A DNA stretch of 6,599 nt. It comes from Deltaproteobacteria bacterium RBG_13_61_14. Lineage in GTDB: Bacteria > RBG-13-61-14. Made by a program: the position numbers and the translations under genes. The notes below the pieces were generated by a model, which saw only the letters and a list, made by a program, of their open reading frames with translations, was not told the origin of the DNA and did no database searches. Positions 5,530 to 6,486 of this stretch are shown here, in pieces (position 1 is the stretch's first letter; the number at the start of each line of letters is the position of its first letter). Location: positions 23,497 through 30,095 of the forward strand of contig MGQK01000063.1 in NCBI GenBank assembly GCA_001797815.1. Direction: 5' to 3'.

Positions 5530-6237
5530 TTAATTCCCCCAGGGGGCGGCCAGCTTGACGCCGGAAAAAAGCAGTGCATTCGCAATAAAGTGCCCGAAGA
5601 TCAACGGCCACAGGTTCCTGGTCATCAGGTAGGCCCCGGAAAGCATCAGCCCCAGAAAGAAAGTCACAAACATCTTGATGGTCCCTCCTTCCCAGTGGAT
5701 CAGGGAGAAAACCAAGGAGGAGAACAGGAGGTAGAGGACCAGACTGAACGTGTTGGATTTGAAAAGCAGCCGGGGCAGGGCCCGGTAGTAAAACTCTTCC
5801 GCCAGGCCGCCGGTGATGGAAAAATAGAAAACCACGATTATCTTTTCCATTCCCTGTTTCGGAACGGCCATGGAAAAATCAAACACAAAATCTTCCGCGC
5901 CTTTGGCGAAAAAACGATAATGCAAGTAGTGGCCCAGCCACATCAGGAACCAGAAACCATAAAAGACCAGGAAGGGCATGGCGATCATGGCCCCGAGGAA
6001 AATGACCTTTTGGCGCCGGCCGGGGAGCTGAAAATGGAGGCCCAGGTCTTGGTTGGTAAACAACCCGCGGCGGAGTCCCCACCCGTAAAGCAGGAGGGGC
6101 ATCGCCGCCAGGGTCAGGATATCCACGGTCCAAAAGGCAACCGGATGAGCCAGTAACCCTGGATTATAAAAACCATTGAAAAGTTGAGGGGAGATCGCCA
6201 ACAGGAACAGCCCCCAGAGGAATCGGTGATTTTTCAT
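5530..6237 (-). CDS. CPBP family intramembrane metalloprotease (CAAX/Abi type)
   Basis: From ATG 6237 the product is 235 residues, a usual length for the family, with about seven or eight hydrophobic segments. All three catalytic motifs are intact: EExxxR as Glu147-Glu148-x3-Arg152 (GGLAEEFYYRALP), FxxxH as Phe177-x3-His181 (FSLIHW) and HxxxN as His216-x3-Asn220 (GHFIANALL). Bacterial members are polytopic membrane proteases related to the Rce1 CAAX endopeptidase; some act in bacteriocin self-immunity or regulated proteolysis, but most have no known substrate. No bacteriocin or lantibiotic gene is visible nearby. The frame is open to ATG 6279, but ATG 6237 has CAGGA eight bases upstream and removes a basic, non-conserved 14-residue extension. 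The lipocalin-like gene follows after nine bases. Confidence 0.92.
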   Translation of the reverse strand: MKNHRFLWGLFLLAISPQLFNGFYNPGLLAHPVAFWTVDILTLAAMPLLLYGWGLRRGLFTNQDLGLHFQLPGRRQKVIFLGAMIAMPFLVFYGFWFLMWLGHYLHYRFFAKGAEDFVFDFSMAVPKQGMEKIIVVFYFSITGGLAEEFYYRALPRLLFKSNTFSLVLYLLFSSLVFSLIHWEGGTIKMFVTFFLGLMLSGAYLMTRNLWPLIFGHFIANALLFSGVKLAAPWGN

Positions 6238-6245
6238 TACGGTAT

Positions 6246-6250
6246 TCCTG
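6246..6250 (-). promoter_or_regulatory. Ribosome binding site choosing the CPBP gene start
   Basis: On the minus strand CAGGA precedes ATG 6237 by eight bases. The alternative ATG 6279 has its purine-rich AAAGG touching the start codon, too close to serve. Confidence 0.6.
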
Positions 6251-6285
6251 AATCGCCTGGGCCGCTTCGGGCCAGCCATCCTTTA

Positions 6286-6313
6286 TGGAGTGCGATGCTT
6301 CAGCGTCGCTTTG
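6286..6313 (+). repeat. 28-base palindromic repeat unit, left copy
   Basis: The unit reads TGGAGT, then a 7-bp stem with a TTCA loop, then TTTG. It is inverted relative to the copy at 6403-6430. The six differences between the copies comprise five stem bases at three paired positions and one loop base. Confidence 0.75.
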
Positions 6314-6402
6314 GTGCGCGGCAATTCATTGCCGCCCTCAGTTCGGGGGACAGGCATTCCTGCCTGTCAACCTATATACCCGCCGATCAATCGCAGGGAA
6401 GT

Positions 6403-6430
6403 CAAAGCGGCGGTAAACCGCCGCACTCCA
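6403..6430 (-). repeat. 28-base palindromic repeat unit, right copy (inverted)
   Basis: On the minus strand it reads TGGAGT, stem GCGGCGG/CCGCCGC with a TTTA loop, then TTTG. The outer nine bases CGCACTCCA (6422-6430) are an exact inverted match of TGGAGTGCG at 6286-6294. Confidence 0.75.
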
Positions 6431-6451
6431 AAATGGGGGCTACGCCCCCAT
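6431..6451 (-). terminator. Possible intrinsic terminator for the FGE-like gene
   Basis: Read on the minus strand, the eight-pair GC-rich hairpin ATGGGGGC/GCCCCCAT (6451-6433) is followed directly by a short T-run (ATTTTGG). It lies about 43 bases after the TGA of the upstream gene. The T-run is short, so efficiency is doubtful. Confidence 0.35.
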
Positions 6452-6455
6452 ACCC

Positions 6456-6486
6456 CCAAGGGTAAAAGTGTCCAAGGGCCCAAGGG
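6456..6486. repeat. Three copies of CCAAGGG
   Basis: The heptamer CCAAGGG occurs at 6456-6462, 6472-6478 and 6480-6486, the last two around a GGGCCC palindrome. It lies between the hairpin cluster and the end of the FGE-like gene. It looks like low-complexity sequence of no known function. Confidence 0.4.

Follow-up and report, generated by a model that had tools for sequence, protein, structure and literature searches.

GGAG-tagged hairpin composites in a deltaproteobacterial genome and their relation to REP/RAYT systems

REP sequences have been divided into GTAG and CGTC super-families (PMC3733652), and the canonical REPs found beside TnpAY1 subclasses carry the tag GT[AG]G (PMC6006769). 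For TnpA-REP of E. coli and its relatives, it is the folded single strand that is bound, recognition depends on the tag and cleavage takes place near the foot of the hairpin; cleavage at CT is tied to positions 3-4 (AG) of GTAG (PMC8266576). The tag GGAG is absent from the running text of PMC3733652 and PMC6006769, and a search of open literature with the motif letters returned unrelated papers only.

The stretch of deltaproteobacterial DNA analysed here (the window) is 6,599 nucleotides long. We consider it very likely (probability about 0.87) that its positions 6286-6433 are a non-autonomous REPIN/BIME composite, whose outer inverted GGAG-tagged hairpins are recognised by a clade of Y1 (HUH/tyrosine) transposases dedicated to them. 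As in the canonical REP/REPIN and RAYT systems of E. coli, Pseudomonas and Stenotrophomonas, many short tagged palindromes are dispersed through the genome, occur as inverted pairs and, in other genomes, flank a Y1 HUH gene of the NF047646 type. In contrast to canonical REPs, the tag at the hairpin foot is GGAG(T) or GGAC(T) and not GT[AG]G, one unpaired T separates tag and stem, TTT is present at both sides, and the hairpin foot is conserved in many phyla, whereas the stems of a single genome differ from one another. The CGTC-tagged REPs (Di Nocera et al. 2013, PMC3733652) are also tagged short palindromes found in many species, but they carry CGTC and were reported without a dedicated transposase, neither of which holds here. 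The TIRYT/TIRtron elements (PMC3733652), RAYT-like genes flanked by inverted repeats other than GTAG REPs and in some cases multi-copy, may include relatives of the GGAG family; the consensus named for them, however, is GGGGWSAS, and the running text describes no GGAG-tagged cross-phylum hairpin family.

The window locus and its sister composites

Three stems of the form GCGNNNN-TTYA-NNNNCGC with paired N4 are present at 6292-6309 and 6318-6335 on the plus strand and at 6407-6424 on the minus strand. Their positions, and the retention of all four variable pairs in each with a single T-G wobble, are as the initial annotation described. No other such stem occurs in the window, dinucleotide shuffles of which contain 0.003 on average. 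The 145-nt stretch holding them has 4 perfect hairpins with a 7-bp stem and 4-nt loop (mean 0.15 and maximum 3 in 2000 shuffles), and as RNA 6280-6435 folds much more stably than its shuffles (z = -5.6). The element is extragenic. Of its two co-directional neighbours, both on the minus strand, one encodes a CPBP-type protease (5530-6279) and has its start towards the element, and the other faces it with its 3' end.

The outer pair follows the plan [C/T]TTTGGAGT-GCG-N4-loop4-N4-CGC-TTTG, with a 7-bp stem and 4-nt loop. REP1 (6286..6313, plus strand) consists of the tag TGGAGT (6286-6291), the stem GCGATGC/GCGTCGC (6292-6298 / 6303-6309) with loop TTCA, and a 3' TTTG. REP2 (6403..6433, minus strand) is inverted; its tag GGAGT is the complement of 6425-6429, its stem GCGGCGG/CCGCCGC (6407-6424) has the loop TTTA, and TTT stands at both sides. 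The arms of the outer pair make up an inverted repeat of 34 nt, 76% complementary. The proposal that the three stems are one family holds for this outer pair, which is tagged and dispersed, and not for the middle stem (6318..6335, plus strand, GCGGCAA-TTCA-TTGCCGC), which lacks the GGAGT tag and is internal hairpin A of the composite. A nested insert of about 36-38 nt follows at 6337..6374, with a palindrome GACAGGCA-TTCC-TGCCTGTC at 6349-6368, and then internal hairpin B (6379..6398, plus strand), CCCGCCGATCAATCGCAGGG, a degenerate (partly decayed) version of the CCCGCCGATCAATCGGCGGG of sister copies. The fourth (6349-6368) and fifth (6379-6398) hairpins are thus further parts of the composite. 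An outer hairpin, ATGGGGGC-TAC-GCCCCCAT, adjoins at 6433..6451, and a similar one (GGGGGTATGGGGGC...GCCCCCAT) lies outside a REP at C59 (L018) of the same genome. Elsewhere in the window, at about 580-830, inspection by eye revealed an apparent decayed gene with an AlbA_2-like N-terminus (ISLEQLKEWMQTPEENEHLEFKEEG), a stop and then a winged-helix-like C-terminus.

Copies beyond the window, which the initial annotation had led us to expect, are plentiful in its own genome. The DNA query 6270-6460 gave 24 matches, one of them nearly full-length (86%, at C129), and GGAGTGCG-N15-TTT, a pattern that leaves the 3' arm unconstrained and includes the GGAG tag itself in the selection, matched exactly at 20 places, REP1 among them, and at 0 in controls. 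Six own-genome loci align end to end in the order REP1-hairpin A-hairpin B-REP2. The nested insert, whose 36-38 nt separate hairpin A from hairpin B and have GACAGGCATTCCTGCCTGTC at their centre, is found only in the window and C129 copies; the composites at C99, C109, C113 and C82 do not have it and therefore serve as empty sites. Since the two insert-bearing copies have unrelated flanks, we infer that composite and insert were probably copied as one unit. The GACAGGCATTCCTGCCTGTC palindrome also stands by itself at other genome positions (perfect at 8 sites, the window's included).

Other repeats were noted around these elements. Palindromes of the form GGGGGACAGGCATTCCTGCCTGTCAACC (window 6345-6372; L024-L036) are solitary at many genome sites and constitute a second repeat family, for which no mobiliser is known; no GACAGGCA palindrome lies close to the genome's own Y1 genes. 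At C60, C84 and C124 (L001, L004, L006) a REP pair sits within a MITE-like element of about 215 bp with ends AGAGCGTGTACGAAAAGGGTC / GACCTTTTCATACACGCTCT, and at C109:30967-31079 (L019, L027) another long inverted repeat encloses the composite, near CGGACTGAACTTTAGAACTTTTT.

Stem covariation and spread across phyla

Covariation of the stem is strong, whether the copies compared come from the window's genome or from different phyla. Among 13 distinct own-genome copies (including C81, probably a chance match that was left in the count), 95.6% of cells are paired, compared with 79.2% in alignments with reshuffled 3' letters and 23-73% in those with a slid partner. In the six composites 94.8% of cells are paired and seven pairs have changed on both sides, neither figure being reached by any shuffle, and slid versions of the alignment are 26-56% paired. 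Hairpin A, the second helix of these composites, is paired in 100% of cells, with changes on both sides at two positions. In 73 distinct copies from different phyla, 93 cells have changed on both sides; shuffles give 20. Stem changes therefore keep pairing far beyond chance in all three sets, which supports the suggestion that the folded form is what is selected or copied, as in REP/RAYT-type elements.

Alternatively, compensatory change could reflect arm-to-arm copying, in which quasi-palindrome template correction rewrites the stems and no recognition of the fold is involved. The near-perfect palindromes, with many different apices in one genome, are what such a process would give; however, it leaves the conserved single-stranded tag, the TTT flanks and the linkage to a RAYT (below) unexplained. 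We regard it as improbable as the main cause, and it could act in addition.

Related copies are present in genomes that their labels assign to about a dozen phyla. In the genome contig collection at least 116 stretches matched TTTGGAGTGCGG-N10-CCGCTTTG, on records named Verrucomicrobia, Lentisphaerae, Planctomycetes, Chlamydiae, Acidobacteria, Aminicenantes and Chloroflexi, with further labels of Hydrogenedentota, Armatimonadetes, Sumerlaeota, Methylomirabilota, WOR-3, and Delta- and Betaproteobacteria; these are mostly metagenome bins, of which single phylum labels may be wrong. Twenty-three other genomes have 2-173 copies each, with controls at about 0, and three repeat-rich genomes have 132, 173 and 71 copies, with 0 for reversed-pattern controls. 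In IMG/VR the repeat pattern is rare (8 stretches). The geometry of the hairpin is nearly constant, 7 bp and 4 nt with TTT at both sides, although TTT is a component of several of the retrieving patterns. In 279 distinct hairpins chosen by a GGA[N]TGC start, the fourth letter of the tag is G in 239 and C in 31.

Close hairpin pairs are convergent in 44 of 53 cases, and those inspected in a Chlamydiota genome (G019) include 16 near-identical inverted pairs of 177-181 bp. Together with the six own-genome composites, these agree with the idea that the inverted outer pair acts as the ends of a composite element. The Chlamydiota copies (L363-L378) reach past the hairpins, via CGCGCAGCG and a looser inverted repeat, by about 25 bp per side. 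The GCGNAGC beside them resembles known DNA mini-hairpins of very high stability; such a mini-hairpin just outside the element was rejected as a general feature, being found in only 12 of 162 flanks.

The associated Y1 transposase clade

No transposase was shared among the clustered ORFs around the 116 repeat stretches. The clade was found by a PF01797 search with retrieved flanking DNA: divergent Y1 genes lie within the hairpin arrays of two repeat-rich genomes, one from Blastocatellia (acidobacterial, L263) and one from Anaerolineales (Chloroflexota, L270). Their proteins are 45% identical and both score above the cut-off of NF047646 (NCBIfam, REP-associated tyrosine transposase). When the two were made into a profile, it found full-length relatives (>200 bits) in nearly half of the 40 repeat-bearing genomes searched, and no clade RAYT in several others, for example G008, G018 and G022. 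An alignment of 16 members, all 16 of which match NF047646, has an invariant H-x-H and invariant Y, N and H positions in the catalytic region. The HUH and catalytic tyrosine regions are shared with canonical TnpA-REP, and the clade profile is similar in sequence to the solved TnpA-REP 4er8 (E 8.5e-8). In a FastTree topology, taken without support values, members above 200 bits cluster together with their phyla intermixed. No plasmid or phage record matched the RAYT protein.

One of the closest described groups appears to differ in its motifs. TnpAY1 subclass 2.8 (Quentin et al. 2018, PMC6006769) likewise has the HYH form of HUH and related sequences from several phyla, but it is reported with GT[AG]G REPs and the motifs NHYH, W[YH] and YIHYNP, whereas here the W and Y motifs are mostly WD/WE and YVHxN[PA] and the tag is GGAG.

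It is clear that the repeat is tightly linked to one RAYT clade, both physically and phyletically. Strict hairpins lie within about 200 bp of 17 of 20 clade loci and of 0 of 48 other Y1 loci (Fisher 2.5e-13, approximate, as the searches share some of the "other" loci), and the tags adjoining clade genes are GGAG/GGAC. In 145 Verrucomicrobiota genomes drawn evenly and regardless of the repeat, with membership set at >200 bits (14 genomes; repeat in 16), 11 have both, 3 the RAYT only, 5 the repeat only and 126 neither (Fisher 1.4e-10, or 1e-9 without the centre genome; these genomes are related and shared ancestry is uncorrected). The short hairpin is present at most Verrucomicrobiota clade loci; by eye, L316, L319, L321, L325 and L331 have the GGAGT tag on longer imperfect stems, and at L326 and L329 the tag is altered. 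Weaker relatives of about 110 bits (L327, L328, L332, L302) have different hairpins, or none of the GGAG-tagged kind.

The expectation of a RAYT-like Y1 gene was thus borne out in many genomes, where it is flanked by GGAG-tagged hairpins, but not in the window's own, in which no cognate clade member was found (95% complete). PF01797 has 19 matches there, generic Y1 proteins scoring at best 49 bits, and no strict GGA[GC]TGC hairpin is present in the inspected flanks of these genes. Many of the Y1_Tnp proteins encoded at these loci (L039-L046, L183-L201) are of about 320 aa, and 8 inspected loci have no perfect 9-bp hairpins. Among the three genomes of the window's phylum compared, its own included, one of the same order (G040) has a clade RAYT with GGACT hairpins, TTTGGACTGCGGCGTC-CGC-GACGCCGCTTT, on both sides, so the enzyme exists in the window's lineage. 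There (L313, G040:C699), a perfect 20-bp inverted repeat, CCTGACCGTCTAACACTTTT, encloses the RAYT together with both of its hairpins. In the window's own genome the clade RAYT is lost, diverged, unassembled or never present. Because the cognate enzyme was not found, the copies there are probably relics, or reliant on an unassembled or cross-acting enzyme.

Proposed mechanism, remaining alternatives and significance

By homology, these elements are a REP/RAYT (REPtron) system set apart by its tag and cross-phylum spread, and the transposition mechanism would be that of their relatives. By analogy with TnpA-REP, the clade enzyme would bind the folded single strand, read the GGAGT tag and the basal GCG pairs, cut near the hairpin foot and then transfer the unit. 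Upper-stem letters would be free to drift provided that pairing stays; recognition of shape and tag would leave just such a pairing constraint, and arm-to-arm copying could contribute to the pattern as well. The AG of GTAG is retained in GGAG, which would fit cutting at CT here also. If GGAC tags went together with GT at the foot, the flanks should change accordingly; they remain C/T-TTT, which gives this prediction no support.

We lean slightly towards the further reading that the clade represents a RAYT subclass not yet classified, one that uses GGAG as a non-canonical guide and has been carried by horizontal transfer into about a dozen phyla. Its recognition code would be split between a tag and basal stem common to the phyla and an upper stem and loop that drift in a genome-specific manner under the pairing constraint.

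The initial annotation had also offered an RNA structure, that is, terminators or mRNA-stabilising or cis-regulatory elements kept for their folded RNA. The GC-rich stem followed by TTT, the strong RNA folding, the placement between co-directional genes and the stem covariation would all suit this, but the T-run is just 3, the inverted pairs show structure on both strands, and the link is to a DNA transposase clade. Rfam gave the alternative no support, with no covariance-model match in the window and sub-threshold miRNA models only, in 1 of 6 loci. An RNA explanation is therefore very unlikely, and some copies may have a secondary RNA role. It is just as hard to credit that a DDE-type insertion sequence with terminal inverted repeats (TIRs) gave rise to the composites as its MITEs, the hairpins being passengers. 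Several own-genome copies (C60, C84, C124; C109) do lie inside longer inverted repeats, and the relative's RAYT within its perfect 20-bp TIR, but these TIRs vary between copies and genomes, whereas the GGAGT hairpins are met again and again. No TIR of this kind was seen by eye around the window copy, the C63 and C129 flanks already suggest that none is shared, and the link to the RAYT is a specific one.

REP families are usually described per species, with the tag as GTAG. A tag-shifted family that has one hairpin plan in many phyla and its own transposase clade is a natural enzyme-substrate series, which would test how RAYTs read the tag, the basal stem and the fold, and whether such systems move horizontally. 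It also accounts for a class of hairpins between the genes of little-studied bacteria, which might otherwise be read as terminators or regulatory RNAs.
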